From Thermoflexibacter ruber (GTDB taxonomy: Bacteria; Bacteroidota; Bacteroidia; Cytophagales; Thermoflexibacteraceae), in assembly GCF_900113045.1 (NCBI RefSeq), contig NZ_FONY01000017.1:1-64000 (forward strand): DNA of 64,000 bases. The letters are read 5' to 3'. A program made the translations under genes and the position numbers. Of the stretch, positions 6,439 through 50,876 are shown piece by piece. How positions within the stretch are numbered: position 1 is the stretch's first letter; each line of letters opens with the position of its first letter. Under the pieces are notes generated by a model. The model ran no database searches and was not told the origin of the DNA. It was given only the letters and a program-made list of their open reading frames with translations.

Positions 6439-7578
6439 TTACAATGTATCTGCTAACTCAAAAATCTTCCCTATCATTGTTTCCCAACTAAAACGCTTTT
6501 TTTCTAACTTAATATTCTCAGCAAATTCTTTATCCCTCTGATTATCAAAAAAATCTAATATAGCGTTTTTAATTTCTACGGATTCAGGCTTTACTACATA
6601 ACCTACTTTTTGGTGTGATACTATTTCTGCTAAGCCACCTACATTGGTTACTAAGATAGGTTTTTCAAAATGATAAGCTATTTGAGAAACGCCGCTTTGT
6701 GTAGCAGTCTTATACGGTTGCGCCACAAGGTCTGCGGCACAGAAGTAGTTGGCAACCTGCTCAGTGGGGATAAAGTGAGTATGTCTAATAATTTGATTTT
6801 CAAGTTGATACTTTGTTATTATCGCTTCGTATTTGCTCATATTTTCATAAGGCTCACCCGCAATGATGAGTTTTATCTTTCGTTTTTTCAATTCTCCCTC
6901 TCCAAAGGCTTCCAACAGCAAATCAAGCCCTTTGTAAGCACGAATCAATCCAAAAAACAAAACATATTGAAAGTCAGGGCTTAGTCCTAAGTTTTCAAGT
7001 GCTTCTTCCCTGCTGATAGGCGTGCCATAGTTGTCATAAATAGGGTGAGGGGTGTAGATTTTGGGCTTGTCTGGCTCAAAAAGGGCGATGTCATTAAGTA
7101 CGGATTTTGCCATAGCAATAAAGCCATCGCAAGATGAAAGAAAATAGCGGGTAAGCAGTTTATCACCTAACCTTTTTTCGTGGGGAATAACATTGTCGGT
7201 AATAGCGATGAACTTTGTTACATTTCTCTGACTCCAACGCATAATACGGCTAAAAGTACCTAAACAGGGTGCCATAAAAGGTAGCCAAAAGCGAAAAATA
7301 ACTATATCAAACGACTTTTTTCTGTACTCATTTCCTACCCGAAGCCAATTGAGTGGCTGGATAGAGTTAAGTTTTGGACTAATCAGTAAGGTAGAGGGGG
7401 CAGGCTCGTCAGTAAATTGGGAAGTACCCGGAAAAAGAAAATCAGGATACTGTAAGCTAAAACTTAGTATCTCTACCTGATGTCCTGCTTGTTGTAAACT
7501 TTTAGCTAACTGCTCATTAAACGTGGCAATGCCTCCCCTAAGAGGGTGAGCAGGACCTACAATAAGGATATTACTCAT
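6439..7578 (-). CDS. Glycosyltransferase, GT4-type (GT-B fold)
   Basis: A 379-residue protein opening with ILIVGPAHPLRGGIATFNEQ, the glycine-rich N-terminal loop of GT4 enzymes. The second half has the family's donor-binding features: VLFFGLIRAYKGLDLLLEAF, IIAGEP, FIPTEQVANYFCAADLVAQP, and an acidic motif ending in EKPILVTNVGGLAEIV. No membrane span or signal peptide is seen, so it is cytoplasmic and probably adds a sugar to a lipid- or protein-linked acceptor. Donor and acceptor cannot be read from the sequence. It stands alone, divergent from glyS. Confidence 0.9.
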   Translation of the reverse strand: MSNILIVGPAHPLRGGIATFNEQLAKSLQQAGHQVEILSFSLQYPDFLFPGTSQFTDEPAPSTLLISPKLNSIQPLNWLRVGNEYRKKSFDIVIFRFWLPFMAPCLGTFSRIMRWSQRNVTKFIAITDNVIPHEKRLGDKLLTRYFLSSCDGFIAMAKSVLNDIALFEPDKPKIYTPHPIYDNYGTPISREEALENLGLSPDFQYVLFFGLIRAYKGLDLLLEAFGEGELKKRKIKLIIAGEPYENMSKYEAIITKYQLENQIIRHTHFIPTEQVANYFCAADLVAQPYKTATQSGVSQIAYHFEKPILVTNVGGLAEIVSHQKVGYVVKPESVEIKNAILDFFDNQRDKEFAENIKLEKKRFSWETMIGKIFELADTL

Positions 7579-11446: not shown

Positions 11447-14400
11447 TTATTGGATTACTACTTTCCTCACAAAGTTATCCGTAGGTGTAGCTACCGAAAG
11501 TGTATATAGACCTTTGGCAAAGTTAGAAGGAACTTGGATAACTCCACCACCAAACTTAGTACGTTGGTAATATACCTCTTTGCCAAGTGCATCAACCATC
11601 TTCAGCTCGATTTCTGCACCTATCTGAGTAGGGACAATCACGTTAAAGCCTGTATTTTCATCACTTGGGTTTGGATAGATGATAAGTTCACCTCCGTCGC
11701 CTTCAAATAGGATAGCTACCACATTGGTCAAGGTTTCTGAACCATCTATATCTACTTGCAACAAGCGGTAGTAGTTCATACCCTGATGCGGCTTAGTGTC
11801 AGTAAAGAGATACTTTTGCGTAGTATTGGCATTCCCTTTTGCTACTACCTTGCCTATGGTAGTGAAGTTCTTACCATCTGTGCTGCGTTGAACGTTGAAG
11901 TGGCTGGCTCCTCTTTCTGAAATGGTTTCCCATTTTACATCTACCACTTTATTATTTCTTATTGCGTCAAAACTCAAGAACTCTACAGGTAGAATCTCAC
12001 TTGTACTTACAGGTCCAAATTTGGAGAAAGAGTTAAAGTTGTCGCGTCTGCCGGCACTGACATAACAGCTATTCGCAAAACCCCACGGAGATGCTCCATT
12101 GGTTTGTTTCATAAAGGTAATATTTGCGTTACTGCATACAAAAGCACCTGAATCTATGGCAGGAAGTATGAGATTGTAGCTCGGTCCTGTTTCTGTTACT
12201 TCTGCACCATTGGCATTCGTAGTCTTCAAATCCCAATGCCCGCCGGTACATAGGTCATAAAGGAAGCTATTATTTGCACAAGCGTCTGTTACTGTACCCG
12301 GCAAATTAGGGGTGCCTGCTGGAGTTTCCGATGCAAAATAGGTTCTCAGGCTACTTGCTGTAGTCAAAGGCTGATTCAGTGTAATCGTCAGTAATCTGTA
12401 GCCGTTAAGAGGTCCTGCGGGGTCGCTATCTCCTGCGTTGCTTTCTCCACCTACAGGGAAATCATAAGTTCCTGTATGATTTACGTTTCTTCGCAGGGTC
12501 AGATTATTACCAGTCAAGGTCGTAATGATGTAGCTTGCATCTGAGTGATTCGCAATCGCACCAACATCAGAATTGCTTACATAGACCTCCTTGGCAGGGG
12601 TTGCTAAACTTGTGAAGATGTGTCCCTTATTCAGCACTAATTGATTTTCTATTATCAAATTTCCTAATTGTAAATTGACATCTCTGGTTTCATCTTGTTG
12701 ATTGACAATGAAGTTGTTGAAAGCTTCCCTACAATCATCGCAAGCTACGGGCTGTTCTCTGTAATAAATCTGGTCGCCTACGGTAGATTTTCTAAACTCT
12801 ACTGTTCCGCTACCATGCTCAAAACTTGCTCCCGGAATACCTCCACCAAGCGTAGCAAAATCATCATCAGTCGCAATTGGAGATGAGGAACCAAAGCTAT
12901 TAAAAGTACCATAGTTGTTGTTTGTGTATCCATTTGGATATATAGTACTATTTTTACTGATACCATTAATGAACTTCTCACCACTAAACAATATATACTT
13001 CTGATTTGCGTCTAAAGTACCATTGATAATAGCTAAATCATTCCTTACATCTATGTCGTCTTCTAATTGTACCACCTGCTCTGGAGTTTTCTTTCTTACT
13101 ACAAAACTTGCAAAGCTATTGTCTTCACCTACACCATTATTGGTAAAGTTACCTATGATTTTGGCAGTGTAAGGACTTGTCCCTGTAGCTGTAAATGTAA
13201 CTGTAGCCCCTTCTTCTGCTACTAAACCTTCTTTGATAACTGGAGGGAAAGCCACATTCTTAGCATTAATAAAGTCGCCGCATACGTTCAAATTCCAACC
13301 ATTTCTAATTGTAACCTTTGCTCCATACTCTATCCTAATAGTCCTTACCTGAGCTATATTCCTCCAATTGTCATTTCTACCTGTAGGATTAGCATTTGCC
13401 CATGCAGGGTGTCCACTTCCATAAGTATCTGGCTGAGAGGTGGCACTGCTTTCTTGAATAATAGGGAAGAAGTAAGGCACACCTGTATTAGTGGAAGTGG
13501 CAGGGATAATTACATCTGAGTTACAATCCGGAATAGTACAGTTACCCCAGTTATCAGCGTTGAACCAGTCAGTATTTAAACCTCTCCACACAAACTTGTT
13601 GGCAGTAGGGAAAAAGTCAGTATTGCCATCGCAACGGTAGAACATGATGTCATCTATGGACAAGTCATTTCCTGACCTTACCGTACTGGTATTGCGTATA
13701 GATAATTCTACGGTAGAGAGTTCGCCGCTATTCCAAAGGAATGTATATTGTCGCCAAACACATCGCGTAGTATTTCCACTGAGTACAATATTATTCCCAA
13801 TTTGAGAACAGTTCGCATATACACCGTAGTTAGAAGATACATTGTTAAGGTTTACTGCCCAAAAACTAAATACATAGTCTGTATTTTTCCTCACTTTGAA
13901 TCGCTGCGACCATACTTTATTGGCGGTAAATGGACTGGCATTGGCAGTGAGAAAACGATTTCCACTGGGGGAAAAGTTACCATTAGGGTAAGTAGCGGCT
14001 GCACCTGCGGGGGTACTGCCAGAAGTTATCACCTCAAAAGGAGTACTGATAAAAGGAGGTCCTTGCGTTCCTAAGGAAGATCCCATGCCGGGTACTCCTG
14101 CTCTCCATTCTCCTGTATTATTAGTCCCACAATTAATTGGGGCAGCCCCGCCTGTGGCATTACAGAAATTAGAGTGGTAGCGTCTGGGATTATCGGTAAC
14201 AGCCCAAGTATTTTCTGGGTTCATAGAACCGCTACATACACTTGCTCTAAGCTCAGCTTCTCTACCCATATCTCTATCATAGTCATTAGGGCTTGCATTC
14301 ACATTATCAGGTACGTGAGGTGGAGTATAAGAACTATTGGAATAACCATATTCTGTGCTGAAGCCATAAGGCGTATTGAAGCGAAGTTGTGCAGTTCCCC

Positions 14401-17400
14401 CAGCTAAGTAGCCTGCGGTATAAGTTTGTACCCGTGAGTTGTAAGCGTTACCTGCGGCATTAGGGTCAGTAACAAAGTACATATCTCCTAAGGGGGCACC
14501 GTAACCTCCGTTTCCATTGTAAGGAATCACCCCTTCTGCATCATTATTATTAGGGTCGGGTAGAGCCGCAGGGAAAATTCCTGTAGTAGTCCCTACAAAG
14601 CCCGAGCCTGAAGCAGGTCCTGCCTCGAAATCCCCATTAAAAGTAATATTCTTAGGACAGGCAGAAGCCGCAGAATTTTTTGCACAACCTGCACATTCTA
14701 AGATGATTCGTACTCTTTGAGTTTCCCTTGTACCGCAACTTGTGGTATTTACTTCGCAGAACAATTCATACACACCTACTCCCTCAGGGAAATGAATACC
14801 TGCACTTGCCATCATAGAGTTATTAAACTTAGTTCCGTCAGCTTGGAAGGTAGCAGAAGTTGCTCCTACTATGTTGTAAGTGCCTCCGCCTACTTTGGTT
14901 ACTTTCCATTGGTAAGTGTTTATGCCTGAGCCATTTACCCTGAATACGTCAGTAAACTGATTGGGCGGTGTAGTGGTGATAGCTTGCGTAACCGGCAGTG
15001 AACTATCCACATCTCTTACAATACTATAAGAACGAATAGCTAAGTCATTTAAACTCCTTTCAGCCACCATAGGCGGGTCTGTACTGATTACCCTAATCCT
15101 AAAATTAGACCCCGTTGCCATGGTAGGCTGTATAGTGGCAGGGATAATCAAATTCACGCTTCCATTTAAAGAAGTAGCGGCTTTTCTACCCACCTCTGTA
15201 AAGTTTGTAAAAGAACCATCTGGAGCGGATAAGTGGAATATAAACTCATTTTTAGGATTGTAAACAAAAGAAGCAGGAGAATTAGTGCTGTAAGGGGCAG
15301 CAGTACCTCCATTAAGCGTAATGTTAAAATCTGCTCCTAAGTTGATACACAAAGGATTAGAACCCAAATTTGTTTGTGTATAAGTTCCTGTAAGAAGTTC
15401 TGCAATAGGATTGACTTTGATATTTTCCAAAGTAAAGCTACCGCTACCATTGTCGAGGATAATTTTTAGTGCATTCATAGCGGCACTGTTAGTTACTACC
15501 CCCAAAGTAGTTGCTGTATAGCGTGTAGTTCCGTTCCATACATGTACTTGGTTAGCAGGTAAGGTTACAGTAGTACCGCCATTAGGGGGGGTATAGTTTA
15601 GACTGCCCGCTGAGGTATTGATAAACCAAGTAATCGTTCTTCTGCGAGAGCCTGTATTGGGTAGAAAGTCACCTACTACCCCTGTGTTGGAAGGCTGATG
15701 AGTAATACTTACCTGATTGCTATTGCGGAAGTTAATGTCTAAACGAGCAGCTACTGTCCCGTCTATCGTGGCATTATCTCCAAAACCATTCCCTATAAGT
15801 ATCTTAGCGGCAGAGTTTGCAACTGCACTGTTTACCGCACCTACTATGTCAAATCTTACTACTGCTCCATTAGCTACATCTGGAATATTGACATTTCTTA
15901 CCGCATATACCGAACCTGCTCCTGTCCTATTGAATCTAATGTCATTCAGATGGCTCGAGGTAATCTCATTACTTCCATTATTGGAAGCTCTCATGGCATT
16001 AAACTTCCCTGAGAAGTTACTTGCCAAATACAAATCCGCAGGCGTACCCGGACCGTTGTAGCGAGAAATATCCCCATTGCCATTCGTATCTGTACTATCA
16101 TTAGGAATGTAAGAATATCTCGCACCAGTCCTAATATTTACTCTTTGGTTGAGTAACCTACCATAACGCTGACCCGCTGGACTTTCATCATTCACATTAA
16201 AGATAGTTCCATCTCCTTCCACGGATAGCAAGCCTGTTACGTTATAAAATTGTTGGTTTACATTGATAGTTTTGGTTGTATTGGCTACGGCAGAGCGAGC
16301 AGTCAAGTTGAAGTAATTGGTAGGATATACCAATTGGTCAGCACCTAAGTCGTAAACTACCGTATTGTTAGTGGCAGTAGCTACCAACTTATTGGGCTGT
16401 CCTGTAAAAGGAACAGCGGTTCCCCTATACACCAAGCCTGCATTGGTACTATTAATAAATTGGCTACCTACTGCCGCATCGGCAGAGAGCGTATTCAACA
16501 CGATGACTGCCCTTGGGGTAGTTACACTATAAGGAGCTACGGTACTAAAAACTACATTATTAGTAAGCCTTGCATTGCTTGTAATGTTTAAATCATTAGA
16601 CACAAAGAAGGGAATACTATTAATCACATTCGTAGCCGCATTAGTCAAACTCATGTTATAGAAAGTAACATTTACCAGAGGATTGGTTACTGTAGAGTTC
16701 ATTAATTGGGTCTTGTTCCCGTCGAAAAGAATAGTACTCGGCGAAGTAGCTGTAAAATTGGCAGCACCAGAACTATTATTGGCAAAATTTCCTCTGATTC
16801 TAAAATTATTTCTTGTGCTTAATGTACCTCCAGTTTTGTTATACGTAAAGTTATTGAAAATGAAGTTAGTAGAAGATGCACTGCCCTTGATAGCACCAGA
16901 CAAATTGAGCACAAATGTAATATCGCCTGTATTGGCAGTAAAGGTACCGTGGTTAATCATATCGCGACGAATGCTAATATTCGAGCCTGCATTAGGGCTA
17001 AGCGTAGCACCGTCTTCTATGACCAAATCTACGATATTGACTGAACCCCCGGAAGCAGTAGGCATTCCTATATTAGCCGTAATGGTATGCCCTGTACGAA
17101 TAATGACTGACTGCCCTTCTGCTGGGGTAACAGGTATGCCCTGTCCGGGATAAGTTGTTGCACTTATCCACTGAGACGATGCATTGAAAAACTGCCAATT
17201 ACTTACGTCACTCCAGTTTCCACTACCTAAGCTTCGATAATCTCCTAGGCTAATAAAGGTAATCGTTCCGCCCCCCACTGTATTAGTAACTGTACCTGGT
17301 CCTGGTAGGTCTGTATTGCTGGTATTATTGATAACCCCTGAAGCAATGTTAGTTACGCCCCCGCCTATAGAACTGCCCCATACTTTGAGGTTATACCCCC

Positions 17401-20050
17401 CTGCAAAGTTAAGCGTCCCGTGTACTTGTAAGGTAATGATGTCCTCAAAGGGAGAAATATCTACGTTCATGGTATGTCCCGCCTTGATACGCACAATTTG
17501 TGATGTAGAGATAGGCTTTCTCTCTCCGGGATAGTCTGTAGCTGTACCTATGAGCATGGTGAAAGCCGCATCAGAGAATATCTCCCAATCATTAGGATTC
17601 GACCAGTTGCCTGTGGCATTGCGACTTTGATAGTAGGTAGCACTTGCTAAGTAAACAAAATCTGTTTCTGTTACAGTACCACACTGCTGTCCGGTGTCCG
17701 TAACATTACGCCCGCTTATCTGAATGCTCGTAGCTGCACCATTCGTAAGCGTACCTCCGTTTTCTACATAGATATTGACGATAGTCTGGGCTGGGGTGGC
17801 ATTAAAAGTAATGTCATGTCCTGAACGAATAATGATATTTTGTCCTGGAGTAGGTGCGATTGCGCCTGGAGATTCTGGCGCAGCTATCCAAGTAGTTCCG
17901 TTGAACTTCTGCCATGAAGCTGCCGCAGACCAGTTACCTGTAGCTACGTTGGAGCGATAATCTCCTATTTTGATTTTGATAAATCGTTGGGCGCCAGTTT
18001 CTTCTGAAACACCAGTAATGGCTGGAGTGCCGTCAGGGATTAGCGTAGTGGTACCACGAATTTTAAGGTTGTGGCAAGTAGTCATGTCTATCTTGCCGCT
18101 GTACTCTATAAATAAAGCCCCTATGTCTTCTGGTGGGCTGATATTGTGCGTAACCGTATGTCCTGTCCTGACAAATACCCTTGAGTTGAAAGAAGAAGCA
18201 GAGGTAGCTCCTGGGTATTCACCTGCGGAAGTACTGTTCCAAGTAGTTCCGTCAAATTCCTGCCAAGTGGCATCTGTTCCCCAGTTTCCGCTTCCTGCGG
18301 TACGATAATCTCCTGTAGCTACGACTACATAAGTCCCTGTTCCCGACACGAAAGTACCATTGTTAGTCATGCTATTTCTGGCTCTTAAACTGTATCCCGC
18401 TGTGTTGCTAGGATTGTCTATTTCCAAAGTACCACCATTTTCTAAAAACACTCTGCCTATGTCTTCTATTGGGGTAAGGTTGAGATTGACTGTTGTGGTG
18501 GCTCTTACAAAGACTTGTTGAGTGTTGCTTAATGGGGCGGTTTGTCCGGGATAGTCGGTGGCACTGACCCAAGTAGTTCCGTTGAACTGTTGCCAAGTAG
18601 CTAAGGCACTCCAATTACCTGTCAGAGAGCGATAATCTCCATTGGCAGGAATAACTACTGCGGAAGCACAGGTAGTGCAAGTACCATTGATAACAGGGGC
18701 AGTACGAGAACGCATCGTATTCGTTCCTATGAAGTTAAGTGTTCCCCCTGCAAATATTGTTACATTTTGTGTGTCCTCAAAAGGAGTTACGTCTGCGTTA
18801 ATCGTATAACCGCTCATTATGCTTACCTTAGGAGGATTCACAGAAGTATTTTTAGCAGGATAATCTCCCGGCAATACATCTATCCAATTTGTTCCTGTAT
18901 ATTTTTCCCAAACCCTGTAATCGCTCCATGCATAGCTTGTACTACCTATCAAAGTACCAGCTCCTCCCAGAGTGCCATTATTTCTGAATACATTATTCAC
19001 GGTAAGCGTTTGGGAAGCGTTGATAGTCAGCGTTCCTCCGGTAGCTATTTCCAAATTAAAAATTCCACTTTGGGAGGCAGTTACTGTTACATTGTGTCCA
19101 TTTTGAATAAGGACTTTGCCGGAAGACATGGGGGTCTGACCGGGATAATCTGTGGCTGCTACCCAAGTAGTGCCGTTATATCTCTGCCAAGTTGCCACAC
19201 TGTTCCAGTCCCCTGAACCGTTGCTTCTATAATCTCCAATAGAATCTTTGAATATTTTAGTGCGGTAATCGCCTGCCGTACCAAAAGTAAGCTGTCCCGT
19301 AACAGTTCCGTAATTGATTACTGAACCTAAGGCAGTGATAGACTGCCCTCCACTGATAGTTAAGGAAGCAGTAATTTCTATCAATAAATTATTGATTTCT
19401 TGCGGAGTGGTAGGGGAGGTTATTGCATGACCCTTGCGGATAACTACTGTACCAGAACTCATTGGGGTCGTTTGTCCCGGGAAGTCTGTGGCAGCTACCC
19501 AAGCCGTACCATTAAACTTTTCCCAAGTAGATACGCTATTCCAGTTACCTGTACCAGTGGTTCTGTAATCTCCGATATTTACTTTTACCAACACACCATT
19601 GTTAGGCGTATAAGTACCGCAATTCAAAAACTCCCCTCTGTATCTCAAATCGTAATCACCACTAATAGTAAGCGCGCCGCTTGGGTCTATAGAGAGCGTT
19701 CCAATCTCTTCCATAGGAGTATCATCTAAGGTAACAGTATGTCCATTTTTAATAAATACTTTCGTTCCTGCGGTAGAGGCATTAAAAGCAGGATAATTGG
19801 CTGGAACCCCCCAAGTAGTACCATCAAAGCTTTGCCATGTAGCTGTATTTGTCCAGTTACCTGTGGCTACACTGCGAAAATCACCCACAGCCAAAATAAA
19901 TACTCTTCCACTATTTGGAATGTAGCTTCCTGCATTGGTAAAAGACAAAGTTTTGACGTTATAGCAACTCATGATGTTGAGCGTACCTAAGTTTTCTACT
20001 CTTATGATGACCAATCTCGTGGGTGGGTGTGCCGTCCAAATCAACTGCAT
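11447..20050 (-). CDS. Giant T9SS surface protein, C-terminal part (downstream of frameshift)
   Basis: This frame carries most of one gene whose N-terminus lies in the frame at 19959-22577; the true reading probably enters near 20011. It begins in the middle of repeat 8 and contains repeats 9 to 17 of a module of about 110 residues (GDYRS, then GNWS, TWQ-x-F-x-GTTW, YPGQ, VxIRxGHTVT, GGTLxI). Then come about 1,500 residues of further beta-rich sequence, including a lectin-like segment (NITFNGDFEAGPASG) and a second W-rich module (WRGLNTDWFNADNWGNC). The last 80 residues are a type A T9SS sorting domain (LIIYPNPSDENTGFNV ... GLYTLSV ... VRKVVIQ). The protein should be displayed at the cell surface. 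Catalytic residues were not recognised. No start codon with a signal peptide exists in this frame. Confidence 0.85.
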   Translation of the reverse strand: MQLIWTAHPPTRLVIIRVENLGTLNIMSCYNVKTLSFTNAGSYIPNSGRVFILAVGDFRSVATGNWTNTATWQSFDGTTWGVPANYPAFNASTAGTKVFIKNGHTVTLDDTPMEEIGTLSIDPSGALTISGDYDLRYRGEFLNCGTYTPNNGVLVKVNIGDYRTTGTGNWNSVSTWEKFNGTAWVAATDFPGQTTPMSSGTVVIRKGHAITSPTTPQEINNLLIEITASLTISGGQSITALGSVINYGTVTGQLTFGTAGDYRTKIFKDSIGDYRSNGSGDWNSVATWQRYNGTTWVAATDYPGQTPMSSGKVLIQNGHNVTVTASQSGIFNLEIATGGTLTINASQTLTVNNVFRNNGTLGGAGTLIGSTSYAWSDYRVWEKYTGTNWIDVLPGDYPAKNTSVNPPKVSIMSGYTINADVTPFEDTQNVTIFAGGTLNFIGTNTMRSRTAPVINGTCTTCASAVVIPANGDYRSLTGNWSALATWQQFNGTTWVSATDYPGQTAPLSNTQQVFVRATTTVNLNLTPIEDIGRVFLENGGTLEIDNPSNTAGYSLRARNSMTNNGTFVSGTGTYVVVATGDYRTAGSGNWGTDATWQEFDGTTWNSTSAGEYPGATSASSFNSRVFVRTGHTVTHNISPPEDIGALFIEYSGKIDMTTCHNLKIRGTTTLIPDGTPAITGVSEETGAQRFIKIKIGDYRSNVATGNWSAAASWQKFNGTTWIAAPESPGAIAPTPGQNIIIRSGHDITFNATPAQTIVNIYVENGGTLTNGAATSIQISGRNVTDTGQQCGTVTETDFVYLASATYYQSRNATGNWSNPNDWEIFSDAAFTMLIGTATDYPGERKPISTSQIVRIKAGHTMNVDISPFEDIITLQVHGTLNFAGGYNLKVWGSSIGGGVTNIASGVINNTSNTDLPGPGTVTNTVGGGTITFISLGDYRSLGSGNWSDVSNWQFFNASSQWISATTYPGQGIPVTPAEGQSVIIRTGHTITANIGMPTASGGSVNIVDLVIEDGATLSPNAGSNISIRRDMINHGTFTANTGDITFVLNLSGAIKGSASSTNFIFNNFTYNKTGGTLSTRNNFRIRGNFANNSSGAANFTATSPSTILFDGNKTQLMNSTVTNPLVNVTFYNMSLTNAATNVINSIPFFVSNDLNITSNARLTNNVVFSTVAPYSVTTPRAVIVLNTLSADAAVGSQFINSTNAGLVYRGTAVPFTGQPNKLVATATNNTVVYDLGADQLVYPTNYFNLTARSAVANTTKTINVNQQFYNVTGLLSVEGDGTIFNVNDESPAGQRYGRLLNQRVNIRTGARYSYIPNDSTDTNGNGDISRYNGPGTPADLYLASNFSGKFNAMRASNNGSNEITSSHLNDIRFNRTGAGSVYAVRNVNIPDVANGAVVRFDIVGAVNSAVANSAAKILIGNGFGDNATIDGTVAARLDINFRNSNQVSITHQPSNTGVVGDFLPNTGSRRRTITWFINTSAGSLNYTPPNGGTTVTLPANQVHVWNGTTRYTATTLGVVTNSAAMNALKIILDNGSGSFTLENIKVNPIAELLTGTYTQTNLGSNPLCINLGADFNITLNGGTAAPYSTNSPASFVYNPKNEFIFHLSAPDGSFTNFTEVGRKAATSLNGSVNLIIPATIQPTMATGSNFRIRVISTDPPMVAERSLNDLAIRSYSIVRDVDSSLPVTQAITTTPPNQFTDVFRVNGSGINTYQWKVTKVGGGTYNIVGATSATFQADGTKFNNSMMASAGIHFPEGVGVYELFCEVNTTSCGTRETQRVRIILECAGCAKNSAASACPKNITFNGDFEAGPASGSGFVGTTTGIFPAALPDPNNNDAEGVIPYNGNGGYGAPLGDMYFVTDPNAAGNAYNSRVQTYTAGYLAGGTAQLRFNTPYGFSTEYGYSNSSYTPPHVPDNVNASPNDYDRDMGREAELRASVCSGSMNPENTWAVTDNPRRYHSNFCNATGGAAPINCGTNNTGEWRAGVPGMGSSLGTQGPPFISTPFEVITSGSTPAGAAATYPNGNFSPSGNRFLTANASPFTANKVWSQRFKVRKNTDYVFSFWAVNLNNVSSNYGVYANCSQIGNNIVLSGNTTRCVWRQYTFLWNSGELSTVELSIRNTSTVRSGNDLSIDDIMFYRCDGNTDFFPTANKFVWRGLNTDWFNADNWGNCTIPDCNSDVIIPATSTNTGVPYFFPIIQESSATSQPDTYGSGHPAWANANPTGRNDNWRNIAQVRTIRIEYGAKVTIRNGWNLNVCGDFINAKNVAFPPVIKEGLVAEEGATVTFTATGTSPYTAKIIGNFTNNGVGEDNSFASFVVRKKTPEQVVQLEDDIDVRNDLAIINGTLDANQKYILFSGEKFINGISKNSTIYPNGYTNNNYGTFNSFGSSSPIATDDDFATLGGGIPGASFEHGSGTVEFRKSTVGDQIYYREQPVACDDCREAFNNFIVNQQDETRDVNLQLGNLIIENQLVLNKGHIFTSLATPAKEVYVSNSDVGAIANHSDASYIITTLTGNNLTLRRNVNHTGTYDFPVGGESNAGDSDPAGPLNGYRLLTITLNQPLTTASSLRTYFASETPAGTPNLPGTVTDACANNSFLYDLCTGGHWDLKTTNANGAEVTETGPSYNLILPAIDSGAFVCSNANITFMKQTNGASPWGFANSCYVSAGRRDNFNSFSKFGPVSTSEILPVEFLSFDAIRNNKVVDVKWETISERGASHFNVQRSTDGKNFTTIGKVVAKGNANTTQKYLFTDTKPHQGMNYYRLLQVDIDGSETLTNVVAILFEGDGGELIIYPNPSDENTGFNVIVPTQIGAEIELKMVDALGKEVYYQRTKFGGGVIQVPSNFAKGLYTLSVATPTDNFVRKVVIQ

Positions 20051-45235: not shown

Positions 45236-46249
45236 TTAGTTATCACTAAATCTACCCCATTCTATTTTTCGGGAGAAAAACAAAGAAATAGAATTTGCTG
45301 AGGAGAGTATAGGATTTTGCTCAAAATCAATCATACGCCGAATCTCCTCCACTAAGGGAACACTATTGGTACTGATGACTACTTTGAAACCTTGATTCAC
45401 TAAATTGCCTATAAAATTTCCTATAAATATCTGATTATCAATACTTAACCCTTTTTCTGGTTCTCTAATAATTAAGCAGTCCTTAGGCTGTGCCAAATGC
45501 CGCAAGTAAAAGCTCAGCGATGGAAAATCATGTGAGATAGTGTCCAATTTATCTGCTAAATAGACAAAAGGCGAGGTTTGCTGTGCTAAATCTTGTACCT
45601 CCTGTTCAGAACCCAAGCTAAATTTTTGCTTTGCTTGAAAAATTTGGGTTTGTAAACCTAAAAGACTATGTACTAAACTAATAAAGATATTCATACTGAT
45701 AGCACTCTGCAAACGCTCAGTAGTAAACTGGTGTTGTGGCGTAACTTCAAAACTCAACATGGGAGAGAGCGAGGGTTTGGAGGCTGTCATAAAATATCCT
45801 TTTTGCATATTGCCAAAGTGCGTTTCATAGTTAGAGAGGATAATTTGCCTTTTAATAAACTCATTATCAGCATCTATTACTATCTCTGTATTAATAAAGG
45901 ACTCTTTGAAGCCTGTAAAAATTTCTCTAATTTTTTCTCTGAGATAAGTAGTCGTAGTAGATAAAATTTGATGCTTGTATGGTAAGAAATAATTATCCAC
46001 TTTCTCTAATAGATTGATTTCTAATCTATTATTTTCCTGTAATTCCTGTACCAGTTCTTGCAAGTCTTCCCACTGAGCAAACTTAGTCAGTTCTAAGAAA
46101 AAGCTGGTATCAAAACTAAACAAATGATAAATGGTATGCGTAAGGTAAGTCTGCCAATAGTCCTGCTCTCCACAAAGCAAAATTAAATCCTTGCTCAAAT
46201 CAATTTCTGCTTGGTTGATGCTTCCTAAGTTTTTGATTTTTAGAATCAT
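45236..46249 (-). CDS. AAA-type (OLD/AAA_15-like) protein with degenerate ATPase motifs
   Basis: A 337-residue protein laid out like the SMC-related ATPases found in defence loci. Its start ILKIKNLGSINQAEIDLSKD matches their first strands. Walker A should follow but reads LCGEQDYWQTYLTHTIYHLF: the GK pair is WQ. The signature region is PSLSFYLRHLAQPKD. Walker B reads CLIIREPEKGLSIDNQ, with Arg in place of Asp but Glu kept. The switch reads VVISTNSVPLVEEI, with Asn in place of His. The middle (about 80-230) is helical and unrecognised. ATP hydrolysis looks lost. It is convergent with the transglutaminase-like gene and divergent from the restriction-modification gene, 388 bases away. Confidence 0.78.
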   Translation of the reverse strand: MILKIKNLGSINQAEIDLSKDLILLCGEQDYWQTYLTHTIYHLFSFDTSFFLELTKFAQWEDLQELVQELQENNRLEINLLEKVDNYFLPYKHQILSTTTTYLREKIREIFTGFKESFINTEIVIDADNEFIKRQIILSNYETHFGNMQKGYFMTASKPSLSPMLSFEVTPQHQFTTERLQSAISMNIFISLVHSLLGLQTQIFQAKQKFSLGSEQEVQDLAQQTSPFVYLADKLDTISHDFPSLSFYLRHLAQPKDCLIIREPEKGLSIDNQIFIGNFIGNLVNQGFKVVISTNSVPLVEEIRRMIDFEQNPILSSANSISLFFSRKIEWGRFSDN

Positions 46250-46352
46250 AGTATCACAGCATATATTAAAGTAAACATAATTTTTGCTAAAAACCTTATT
46301 TGAGCATCACACTCACAATTAGGCATTGACAAAGGTACAAAAATAATGCAGT

Positions 46353-46425
46353 AAGCCAAATTAAGCGAGTTTAGATTCCTCACTACTTATAAACAAGAGT
46401 AGGAAATCTAAGTTTTGGCTTTTTT
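46353..46425 (+). promoter_or_regulatory. Long interrupted hairpin ending in a T run, upstream of the R-M gene
   Basis: AAGCCAAA (46353) pairs with TTTGGCTT (46414-46421), and inside it TTAGATTCCT pairs with AGGAAATCTAA with one bulge. A run of six T follows. It resembles a terminator but has no plus-strand gene before it; it may end a small leader or non-coding RNA, or stop transcripts from the left. The spacer 46250-46637 holds no other gene. Confidence 0.55.
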
Positions 46426-46637: not shown

Positions 46638-49600
46638 ATGAAAATAGACTTTAAAACTTATATCCAAGAACTACAACAAGTTTCGCTTGACCAACTAACA
46701 GAACACTCCCAAAGGTCAGTTCTGGAAAATCTGCTCAAACAAGCAGCTCAGATTAACCAGACCCAGAAAATTACAGTCTTGCAAGAACCCAAACGCAAAG
46801 AAAACTACGGCTCGCCTGATTTTAAAATCTTTACGGCAAGTGCTATCATTGGCTATGTCGAGAATAAAAAGATTACGGAAAATTTGGATAGAACCTTACA
46901 AAGCGAACAGATAAAAAAGTACCGAGAATTATCAAAAAATCTACTCCTTACCAACTATATAGACTTTGTTTGGATAAGAGGAGAAAATATACAGAGCGAA
47001 AGTCTGTGTTCCCTATCGGATATTGAAAACAAAAACTACAAAGGCGATGAGGAAAAACAAGAAAAGGTAGAACAACTTTTGCTCAATTTTTTTTCGCAAG
47101 TACCTGAAAAAATAACCAATCCTGACCACTTGGCTCTTGCCTTAGCGGTGCGCTGCCGAAATTTGAAAGATTTTATCTATGATGAATTGGAAAGACAAAG
47201 CAAGCAAAACGAACAGGAAAGACTATACGACCTATACGATGCCTTTAAAAACAACATTTTTAGCGAGCTAAGCATAGCAGAGTTTGCAGATGCTTTTGCT
47301 CAAATGCTCAGCTACGGTATGTTCTTGGCAGGATTGAATGCGGATACCCAGGCAATTTCTCTGGACAGTGTAAAGAAATATATTCCTTCAAGTTTTCAAC
47401 TTATCAAGGAATTAATCCATTTTCTTGATGAATTGGAAAAACCTGAATACCAAGAAACTAAGTGGATTATTGATGAAATCATTGCTATTATCAACCACAT
47501 AGAATGGGCAACTTTTCAGCAAAATATGAGCTTTAAAAAAAGAACCTCAGAAGATTGGGACAGCGCAGACCCCTACATTTATTTTTACGAAACCTTCCTT
47601 GCCGCCTATGACTATAAGCTGCGAAAAGCCAAAGGTGTTTACTATACTCCTCCCCAAGCAGTGAATTTTATTGTGCGAGCTATTGATGAAATTTTAACGC
47701 ATACCTTCCAACTCCCTAATGGCTTAGCTGAACACAAGCAAGTAACCGTCTTGGATTTTGCCACAGGAACAGGAACTTTTTTATTAGAAATATTCAGAAC
47801 AGTATTGGAAAACTTACCCCAACAGAACCCTGAAAAAAGAAAACTACTGATTAAGGAGCATCTCTTGCAAAACCTCTACGGTTTTGAGTACCTAATTGCC
47901 CCTTATACTGTGGCTCATCTCAAACTTTCGCAGTTTTTGAAGGAAAATGGCTACGAACTCGAGGGCAAGGAGCGTCTGCAAGTATATCTGACCAATACCT
48001 TAGAGCCTGTAAATAGGCAAGTCAGAGTGCCTTTTATGCCCCAACTTTCTAAAGAAACACAGTCGGCTCAGGCTATCAAAGATAAACCAATTTTAGTTAT
48101 TACGGGCAACCCTCCTTATTCTTATGCTTCTAAAAATAATAGCCTTTGGATTAGCAATAAAATAAAGGACTATTACAAGGTAGATAGTACAAAACTCAAC
48201 GAACGCAATCCTAAGGGTTTACAAGATGATTATGTGAAGTTCATTCGTTTTGCCCAAGACAAAATGGATAGGGTAGAGCAGGGCGTAGTAGGCATTATTA
48301 CGAATCATTCTTTTTTGGACAATCCTACTTTTAGAGGTATGCGACAAAGTCTGATGAGTACTTTTAACCAACTCCATTTTATTGATTTGCATGGAAATAG
48401 CAGGAAAAAAGAAACTACTCCCGAAGGCAGAAAAGACGAAAATATTTTTGATATTCAGCAAGGCGTATGTATTTCTATTTTGGTCAAGAAAAAAGGATTA
48501 AAGAAAGGCATTTTTCATACAGATTTTTGGGGAAGTAGAAAGGAAAAACTCAAGCTCTGTGTAGAAAACTCTTTGAAAACCATTGAGTTTACTGAACTAC
48601 AGCCCAATGCGCCGTTCTACTTGTTCATACCTCAAAATCAAGCACTCAGGGAGCAGTACGAGCATTTTTGGAGCATAAAGGATATTTTTAACCTCAACAG
48701 TGTGGGGGTAGTAACGGGAAACGATGAACTATTCATAGATTTTGAGGAGAAAAATCTGCAAAAAAAGATACGAGAACGATTCAAAGAATATCACAAAGAA
48801 CTTACTACCTCCATCTTGTATCGTCCTTTTGATGTACGAAAGCTGTACTACGATGCGGACAAGATAGAGCGGTCAAGGAAAAACATAATGATTAATTTTC
48901 AAGATAAGAATGTTGCACTCATATCTGTTAGGCAGGTAGCTGAAGGCATATTCAACCATGCTTTCATAACAAGCTTTATTCCCAATTTTAGGGCTACATT
49001 AAGTAATAAAGGTGGGGCTTTTATTTTCCCTCTTTACATTCTTAAAAATGGGGTAGAAAAAACATTTTTTGGAGTAGCCGAGCCACAAGCCCCGTATGGA
49101 AATGAGAAAGAAGAAAACGGCTTTATCAAGACCGAAAATTTCACTTCTGCCTTTCGCAAGTTTATCAATCAACAATACCAAAAGCATTATAACCCTGAGC
49201 AGATTTTAGGTTATATCTATGCCATGCTGCACAGTGAAACGTACAGAACCAAGTATGCAGACTTTTTAAAGATGGATTTTCCCCATATTCCATTTACCAA
49301 AAACCAACAAAGTTTTGAGCATCTTGCAGTGCTGGGAGAGGAGTTGATAGAACGACACTTGATGCGAAAAAACTTTGCTTTCAAAGAGTTGGCAGATTTG
49401 GGGAACTACCCTGTTGAGGGCGACAATGTAGTGGTGAAACCTGAATTTAAAATCATTAACATACAAGGCAAAACCCACCAACGACTATACATCAACCCAA
49501 CGCAGTATTTTGAAACCGTACCCAAAGAGGTCTACGAGTTTTACATTGGTGGCTATCAGGTTTTGGACAAGTACCTCAAAGACAGAAAAGGAAGAAGCAT

Positions 49601-49700
49601 TGCAGAGGATTTATTTCACATGACAGAAATTATCAAAATCATATATTTCACTATCAAGCAAATGGAAAAGATTGATGAAGAAACTAAGGAGTGGATTTAG
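46638..49700 (+). CDS. Single-chain restriction-modification enzyme (type ISP/IIG, N6-adenine methylase)
   Basis: A 1,020-residue fusion. Residues 50-80 carry a PD-(D/E)xK nuclease pattern: GSPDFKIFTASAIIGYVENK, with D61, E75 and K77. A helical linker follows. The methylase has motif I LDFATGTGTFLLEIF (about 372) and motif IV ITGNPPYSYASKN (about 487), the NPPY of N6-adenine enzymes. The C-terminus (FYIGGYQVLDKYLKDRKGRS, FHMTEIIKII) is the type ISP specificity-domain ending. There is no helicase, unlike full type ISP enzymes such as LlaBIII, so it resembles type IIG. It both modifies and cuts DNA and needs no second gene. The recognition site cannot be read. Confidence 0.92.
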   Translation: MKIDFKTYIQELQQVSLDQLTEHSQRSVLENLLKQAAQINQTQKITVLQEPKRKENYGSPDFKIFTASAIIGYVENKKITENLDRTLQSEQIKKYRELSKNLLLTNYIDFVWIRGENIQSESLCSLSDIENKNYKGDEEKQEKVEQLLLNFFSQVPEKITNPDHLALALAVRCRNLKDFIYDELERQSKQNEQERLYDLYDAFKNNIFSELSIAEFADAFAQMLSYGMFLAGLNADTQAISLDSVKKYIPSSFQLIKELIHFLDELEKPEYQETKWIIDEIIAIINHIEWATFQQNMSFKKRTSEDWDSADPYIYFYETFLAAYDYKLRKAKGVYYTPPQAVNFIVRAIDEILTHTFQLPNGLAEHKQVTVLDFATGTGTFLLEIFRTVLENLPQQNPEKRKLLIKEHLLQNLYGFEYLIAPYTVAHLKLSQFLKENGYELEGKERLQVYLTNTLEPVNRQVRVPFMPQLSKETQSAQAIKDKPILVITGNPPYSYASKNNSLWISNKIKDYYKVDSTKLNERNPKGLQDDYVKFIRFAQDKMDRVEQGVVGIITNHSFLDNPTFRGMRQSLMSTFNQLHFIDLHGNSRKKETTPEGRKDENIFDIQQGVCISILVKKKGLKKGIFHTDFWGSRKEKLKLCVENSLKTIEFTELQPNAPFYLFIPQNQALREQYEHFWSIKDIFNLNSVGVVTGNDELFIDFEEKNLQKKIRERFKEYHKELTTSILYRPFDVRKLYYDADKIERSRKNIMINFQDKNVALISVRQVAEGIFNHAFITSFIPNFRATLSNKGGAFIFPLYILKNGVEKTFFGVAEPQAPYGNEKEENGFIKTENFTSAFRKFINQQYQKHYNPEQILGYIYAMLHSETYRTKYADFLKMDFPHIPFTKNQQSFEHLAVLGEELIERHLMRKNFAFKELADLGNYPVEGDNVVVKPEFKIINIQGKTHQRLYINPTQYFETVPKEVYEFYIGGYQVLDKYLKDRKGRSIAEDLFHMTEIIKIIYFTIKQMEKIDEETKEWI

Positions 49701-50039: not shown

Positions 50040-50225
50040 CCAAGTCTCTTTCTCAGCAAGAGAAAAGGATTGGAAAATCATTTTATTTGGAGTATCCTGA
50101 TTTTATTTAACTTTGGATAAATTTTAAATTGATAGAATCTTTGTAATACAAAAACAAAAAGATTTTTTTCATTTTGTTTAATTGTGATTTTTTGTTTATT
50201 TTTGGTAAAAAGAAAGCTCGAGCCT

Positions 50226-50876
50226 ATGCCTGCGATACTTGAAAGTGAAAATATCTTTACTCAAATTCCGCCTCTTGACGAAATCCAAGAGGGAGAAGTA
50301 TTTTACATGAGCGAGGAGGAGTACTTGGAACTCGTTGAAAAACATGAGGGTAGATTTCAATATGAAAACGGAAAAGTAATCCTTATGCCTTACGCACAAA
50401 AAAATCACAACATCGTTGAAGCGAATATAATAGGAGAATTATATATCGCTTTGCAAGCAAGCCCACTGATTGTTTCTACCAACGAAACGCTTATTTATGT
50501 CCCTGCTTTTGACCTCTATGCCAATCCTGATGTAGTTGTTTTCCAAGAACCTACCGAGTACAGAGAGCGTAAAAAAGGCATACAAGCTCTGCTTAATCCC
50601 GTTTGTATCATTGAAATTCTGTCCCCAAGTACAGCCCGCTACGATAGAAGCAAAAAACTCCAAATGTACCAGTCCATTCCAAGTCTTCAGCAGTACGTCA
50701 TGATTTCCCAAGAGGAAGTCCAAGTAGAAACCCTGACCAAAAACAAAGAAAGAGAGTGGGTGTACCGATTTGCTTTTGAGGCAGACCAAAGCATCAGTAT
50801 TTTAGACCACCCTATCCCTCTTTCAAAGATGTATGCCAAAGTACAATTTGAAAAAGCTAATACCACCACTACCTAA
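50226..50876 (+). CDS. Uma2 family (DUF820) putative endonuclease
   Basis: A 216-residue protein, start MPAILESENIFTQ at 50226 (an earlier frame start at 50184 is less likely). Uma2 marks are MSEEEYLELVEKHEGRFQYE, NPDVVVFQEP, CIIEILSPSTARYDRSKKLQ (the acidic and Lys positions of a PD-(D/E)xK-like site), MYQSIPSLQQYVMIS. This form is closer to the family consensus than the copy at 1402-2097. Its stop overlaps the convergent TonB-receptor stop by 3 bases. Function is unknown; members are often found near mobile DNA, and a MITE-like element lies just upstream. Confidence 0.88.
   Translation: MPAILESENIFTQIPPLDEIQEGEVFYMSEEEYLELVEKHEGRFQYENGKVILMPYAQKNHNIVEANIIGELYIALQASPLIVSTNETLIYVPAFDLYANPDVVVFQEPTEYRERKKGIQALLNPVCIIEILSPSTARYDRSKKLQMYQSIPSLQQYVMISQEEVQVETLTKNKEREWVYRFAFEADQSISILDHPIPLSKMYAKVQFEKANTTTT

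Follow-up and report, generated by a model that had tools for sequence, protein, structure and literature searches.

Positions 45236-46249 of the window (the whole 64,000-nucleotide stretch of Thermoflexibacter ruber DNA that was analysed) hold, on the minus strand, a gene that runs as one unbroken frame from its ATG to its stop codon and encodes 337 residues. The product, hereafter the pseudo-ATPase, has its origin among the OLD-ABC ATPases of the PD-T4-4_A type. Its gene is present as a single copy in the T. ruber genome (G000) and lies between a transglutaminase gene, convergent with it, and a type IIG restriction-modification (R-M) gene, which is divergent. The features of the locus are the following:

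45236-46249, minus strand: coding sequence of the pseudo-ATPase, 337 residues, of PD-T4-4_A-like OLD-ABC ATPase origin (reading frame, Pfam, PADLOC, alignment, tree)
45353-45379, minus strand: H-loop relic, residues 291-299, VISTNSVPL; relatives mostly xxSTHSDYx (alignment)
45431-45478, minus strand: Walker B and D-loop relic, residues 258-273, CLIIREPEKGLSIDNQ; relatives mostly xxIIDEPELNLHPDNQ (alignment)
45488-45550, minus strand: ABC signature helix relic, residues 234-254; the preceding beta-arm and signature, about 35 residues, deleted (alignment)
46145-46171, minus strand: Walker A relic, residues 27-35, GEQDYWQTY; relatives mostly GxNNTGKTY (alignment)
46330-46360, minus strand: possible promoter, TTTG-N19-TACCTTTG, upstream of the pseudo-ATPase gene (consensus match only)
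46638-49700, plus strand: type IIG restriction-modification gene, divergent, a neighbour outside the finding and absent beside the orthologues (Pfam/PADLOC)

The promoter call matches what we take to be the Bacteroidota consensus, and the same scan upstream of both orthologues (see below) gave no such pair. Elsewhere in the window, a very long open frame of 2867 residues occupies positions 11447-20050 on the minus strand.

An earlier note on this DNA had described the protein as OLD/AAA_15-like. The second half of that label stands: Pfam AAA_15 (PF13175) scores 41.5 bits on the window protein, above the curated cut-off of 32.1, and 31.8 bits, just under it, on one orthologue (G010). The OLD half is loose, as Pfam finds no Toprim domain in the chain, which stops about 40 residues past the switch region, and the nearest PADLOC profile is PD-T4-4_A (PDLC04033, 2.6e-30, in two stretches), followed by PDC-M47A (7.7e-27) and AriA (1.3e-11). 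No NCBIfam model scored above its cut-off on the window protein, and a sequence search of the PDB gave a best E-value of 0.79.

Two orthologues, both of 337 residues and with the same motif losses, were found in the genus, in the genomes G011 (76% identical to the window protein) and G010 (67%). We aligned the three proteins with 25 relatives and removed one long-branched row (L070), so that 24 relatives were counted; these had been picked by script for an intact Walker A and EPExNLHP, and the constancy of those columns is therefore partly by construction. In 41 columns, at least 90% of the 24 relatives share one residue. Two or all three of the orthologues keep that residue in 23 of these columns; 16 columns are replaced and 2 deleted. 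The replaced columns fall mostly in the motifs of the nucleotide site: N29, N30, G32 and K33 in Walker A, V239 and L242 in the signature helix, D262 in Walker B, H269 and P270 (the D-loop HP, now SI or YI) and H295, D297 and Y298 in the H-loop, with four further columns. In all three orthologues, G32/K33 became W/Q, D262 became R and the switch His, H295, became N, so the alignment bears out the substitutions that had first been read in the single intact frame. The claim that every catalytic motif is changed goes slightly too far: it holds for Walker A, the Walker B Asp and the switch His, but R179, the ER-motif Arg, survives in all three proteins, and E263, the Walker B Glu, in two of them, with Gln in its place in G010. 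Other kept columns include G9, G27, H251, P264, E265, Q273, T294 and S296. Compared with the relatives, the proteins also lack, besides the deleted beta-arm and signature, some 20 residues that follow the H-loop helix and a C-terminal stretch of roughly 40.

Outside the pseudo-ATPase clade, the search of the order yielded 34 distinct relative loci, namely the 24 aligned rows and 10 loci read separately (L005, L047, L050, L053, L056, L149-L152 and a decayed stump on G010:C51). All 34 have the P-loop Lys, and no other dead form was found among them. Departures were seen in some PD-T4-4_A-like proteins with intact P-loop and switch His: L056 (G087:C1) reads IIEEPE for IIDEPE in Walker B and LYPDNQ for LHPDNQ, and L149 and L152 (both G124) have ESHLTLKNQ in the D-loop for ELNLHPxNQ, without the HP. 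In the viral relatives L118 and L123, the P-loop reads SNKT, with the Lys kept.

Structure prediction suggests that the pseudo-ATPase probably still folds as an ABC head. AlphaFold2 gave a pLDDT of 34 with 3 sequences and a mean pLDDT of 64 (pTM 0.65) with 14, of which 11 are canonical relatives from viral contigs, so that the fold is lent by the canonical rows. In the 14-sequence model, 10-residue blocks had pLDDT values of 76-84 within residues 1-40 and of 72-94 within residues 221-320; residues 137-219 were of low confidence. For this model, with its pLDDT of 64 and its borrowed fold, the best VIA-align match was a retron-Eco7 chain (Z 9.8, 218 residues, rmsd 4.3). The neighbours were retron-Eco7/Ec78 effector chains and Rad50 (Z 9.5), then Septu PtuA and SMC heads, rows within 1 Z unit counting as tied (retron/Septu 9.8 to 8.6 versus Rad50 9.5). 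The retron-Eco7 chains are presumably PtuA, the name given in the Ec78 and Septu titles. Foldseek found no PDB match that reached an E-value of 0.001; Retron-Eco8 came closest, at 1.1e-3.

PF13175 and a PD-(D/E)XK nuclease are listed for PD-T4-4 in the excerpted text of one paper (PMC10952713). The ATPase gene is directly followed, or overlapped at its end, by a gene of 166-239 residues at all ten canonical loci read, and each of these partner genes matches PD-T4-4_B (eight by PADLOC scan, those of G011:C319 and G010:C46 by model search). A PD-T4-4_B gene was found beside the pseudo-ATPase gene at none of its three loci, and the genes immediately downstream in G011 (ogt, after 15 nt) and G010 (pyrE, after 21 nt) have no PADLOC match. 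The T. ruber genome holds no full-length PD-T4-4_A apart from the pseudo-ATPase and no match to the PD-T4-4_B models PDLC04037, PDLC04034 and PDLC04035; PDLC04037 is positive in G010 and G011, and PDLC04034 is silent in the controls too, so that its negative result says little. Several canonical PD-T4-4 pairs are present in G010 and in G011. More distant pairs occur in T. ruber: an AAA_15 ATPase with a 154-residue partner like PDC-M29A/B on G000:C78 (L069:1498-3332; 6.7e-30 and 3e-6), and a HEC-01-like ATPase with its partner on G000:C74, just past the window (L096:5770-7828; PADLOC 2.6e-146 and 1.1e-76). The P-loop, EEPE and NTHS of the HEC-01-like ATPase are readable.

These pairs bear on the proposal that the protein inhibits active relatives. 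As a dominant-negative or antitoxin-like regulator, the dead head would restrain a B nuclease or an active A subunit by binding to it. The canonical pairs of G010 and G011 speak for such a role, as do the distant pairs on C78 and C74 in T. ruber and the behaviour of the WonAB system in the excerpted text of its report, where inactivating the ATPase of WonA made WonB overproduction no longer toxic, an effect accompanied by loss of WonB (PMC12137116). However, T. ruber itself lacks a detected PD-T4-4 pair (with PDLC04034 uninformative), the pseudo-ATPase gene is unlinked to any such operon, and the loss of the motifs that build the dimer interface argues against pairing with an active subunit as a conventional ATP sandwich. 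Moreover, overproduction of WonB in the absence of WonA had no toxic effect and the authors ruled out simple sequestration, as far as the excerpt goes (PMC12137116), so B on its own might not require an antidote. The proposal is thus weakened, and we consider a regulator of this kind rather unlikely. It is quite unlikely, too, that the domesticated dead A subunit serves as a genome-encoded antagonist, that is, an immunity protein or decoy binding a PD-T4-4-like nuclease, an active ATPase or a phage trigger. Such an antagonist would guard the host from self-toxicity or from PD-T4-4-like systems on mobile elements, and in T. ruber it would have to target distant or incoming systems.

The divergent type IIG gene had also raised the possibility of a link to R-M systems. 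The immediate neighbours of the pseudo-ATPase gene are different at all three loci and are ordinary cell genes at two of them, encoding the Ogt methyltransferase and an ECF sigma factor in G011 and CutC and PyrE in G010. Orthologues of several neighbours are found elsewhere without a pseudo-ATPase gene: transglutaminase in G010 and G011, PyrE in G000 and G011, and, at another place in G000, the sigma factor of G011 together with the next two genes. Mobility of the pseudo-ATPase gene is not claimed, even though its loci differ and these orthologues sit elsewhere. A type IIG gene adjoins it at one locus of three and, since the neighbours differ, this link is local to T. ruber; homologues with the same substitutions do exist, in G010 and G011, but their recurrence beside R-M genes is not borne out, and a partnership with the type IIG system is rejected for want of conservation.

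The same neighbourhoods make it improbable, in our estimate, that the pseudo-ATPase still has a defence role against phages, whether as a lone sensor, an adaptor or part of an R-M-linked system. Such a role would draw support in T. ruber from the type IIG gene and from a Uma2-type putative restriction endonuclease gene just beyond it (window 50184-50876, plus strand; PADLOC PDC-S03, 1.6e-18). In G011, two of the seven scanned neighbours match PADLOC. One is an Lhr-like helicase about 3.9 kb from the orthologue, matched by several PADLOC helicase models, which by Pfam may be generic; the other is a ScaI-type restriction endonuclease 6.7 kb away (L031:8343-8990 on G011:C151; Pfam RE_ScaI, 1.7e-69). 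However, both helicases and R-M genes are widespread, so the presence of one several kilobases off is weak evidence, and none of the six neighbours scanned in G010 matches PADLOC.

The pseudo-ATPase has a narrow distribution. Some match was found in 7 of 13 genomes of the family that were searched, with full-length orthologues only in G011 and G010. Among 390 genomes of the order, 23 match at 1e-8 and only three (G000, G010 and G011) hold a full-length copy, and among 395 genomes of the phylum, a sample that overlaps the 390, G000 alone matches at 1e-13. Scanning contigs with the single protein as query revealed no further carriers; with the alignment as query, two Cytophagales metagenome contigs were recovered (JAAFJS010000234.1 and REAZ01000021.1), which we take to be the contigs of G011 and G010 and not extra cases. 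The case for conservation is made by three genomes, two of them apparently metagenome-assembled and one of these 62% complete. A phage origin and a plasmid origin were both considered and rejected: a search of viral contigs gave no relative, the phage search 3 records (19% covered) and the plasmid search 5 records (at most 35% covered).

Judged from codon comparisons, the gene is under purifying selection in the three species of the genus. NG86 dN among the three orthologues is 0.157, 0.240 and 0.203, with its lowest values across the former ABC ATPase core (residues 1-50 and 231-310); dS is saturated in two pairs, and in the third (G011-G010) it reaches 2.43, with a dN/dS of 0.084. Between G010 and G011, the pseudo-ATPases are 71.2% identical, the same value as for a canonical PD-T4-4_A pair of the two genomes, whose B partners are 86.2% identical. 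Transglutaminase (75.6%) and PyrE (75.4%) are slightly more similar. When neutral drift was simulated without indels at five distances between 0.3 and 2.4, none of the 5000 copies run per distance retained an open frame. In a tree of 28 rows, the three proteins form one clade (100/100), whose placement among the PD-T4-4_A subfamilies is uncertain. Its stem measures 2.73 changes per column, a length that is itself uncertain, versus 0.12-0.29 for the tips; a long stem with short tips would fit a burst of change followed by renewed constraint.

The view of the earlier note that a pseudo-ATPase of a defence-type family has been kept by selection is thus upheld by intact genes in all three species, and the T. 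ruber gene is no lone decaying copy, as same-length orthologues with the same losses are present in G010 and G011. A candidate second dead copy on G010:C51 proved to be a decayed canonical copy of another lineage (NNTGKTY, then stops). At this site (L032, ~6600-6950), a canonical PD-T4-4_A N-terminal stump, HNNTGKTY, is ended by stop codons, so PD-T4-4 systems do decay in the genus. That the pseudo-ATPase is a functionless remnant in slow decay is nevertheless very improbable, for although the lost catalytic motifs and partner gene, the long stem branch and the decayed copy of G010 would suit it, the gene is intact and of equal length in three species whose synonymous distances are saturated or nearly so, the sole measurable pair has a dN/dS of 0.084 and neutral drift does not hold the frame open.

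Its persistence at the same length in three related species suggests that the pseudo-ATPase probably has a non-enzymatic job. With moderate confidence, we favour the view that it is an exapted protein, most likely a non-hydrolysing ABC head that binds or regulates a partner. In the Cytophagales genus, its ancestor would have been the A subunit, an ABC-type ATPase sensor, of a two-gene anti-phage system like PD-T4-4/WonAB. The lineage would then have lost the nuclease gene, the ATP-binding motifs and the dimer-interface motifs, and the protein would have shrunk from about 420-510 to 337 residues along one long stem branch before being constrained anew. We infer that ATP binding is lost and that the protein, folded as an ABC head, acts by binding: its core fold may offer a surface to a protein or nucleic-acid partner, allowing regulation or scaffolding without an ATP cycle. 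In the excerpted WonAB report, K34A, R182A, E300A and H333A in WonA each abolish protection (PMC12137116). In the pseudo-ATPase, by contrast, the counterparts of this Lys and His are gone and that of the Glu is gone in one species, the Arg being kept (residues mapped by motif order, WonA itself lying outside the alignment). It follows that this protein should be unable to run the ATP-driven mechanism of its ancestor.

Here a defence ATPase has clearly shed both its chemistry and its effector partner while remaining under selection in three species. Identification of its partner would reveal how immune sensors are turned into regulators, and whether nuclease systems have stable antagonists encoded by bacteria themselves. 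The label 'AAA family ATPase', common for the relatives (for example among the plasmid matches), would misstate the activity of the pseudo-ATPase.

Among known systems, the A subunit of PD-T4-4 (PDLC04033) is the closest: it shares the same start and the frame formed by FYLRHLAQxxD and EPExxLxxxNQ, and canonical copies occur in the same genus. Unlike it, the pseudo-ATPase lacks Walker A, the signature, the Walker B Asp, the D-loop HP and the switch His, is roughly 80-170 residues shorter than the canonical rows and is adjoined by no B nuclease gene. WonAB, an OLD-ABC ATPase (WonA) with a PD-(D/E)xK nuclease (WonB), is related to PD-T4-4 by its authors, who describe, in the text excerpted, a family in which ABC-ATPase sensors go together with nucleases (PMC12137116). 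The OLD nucleases, Gabija GajA, PARIS AriA and Septu PtuA have an ABC-type head, which the pseudo-ATPase probably retains (AriA profile, 1.3e-11); unlike them, the pseudo-ATPase has no Toprim domain, no partner gene at its loci and no ATP motifs. Among the papers listed by literature searches, none is, judged from its title and the start of its abstract, on a dead, partnerless PD-T4-4_A or a dead WonA, and the term 'pseudo-ATPase' did not occur among the matches listed. Inactive P-loop domains in defence systems are a recognised theme and not new: in the excerpts of the respective papers, the inactive STAND protein BrxB and the inactive SF2 domain of DndH are retained defence P-loop folds without Walker motifs (PMC12839542, PMC10853773). 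As described there, these are STAND and SF2 folds and parts of multi-gene systems, whereas the pseudo-ATPase is of the ABC type and stands with no conserved neighbour.
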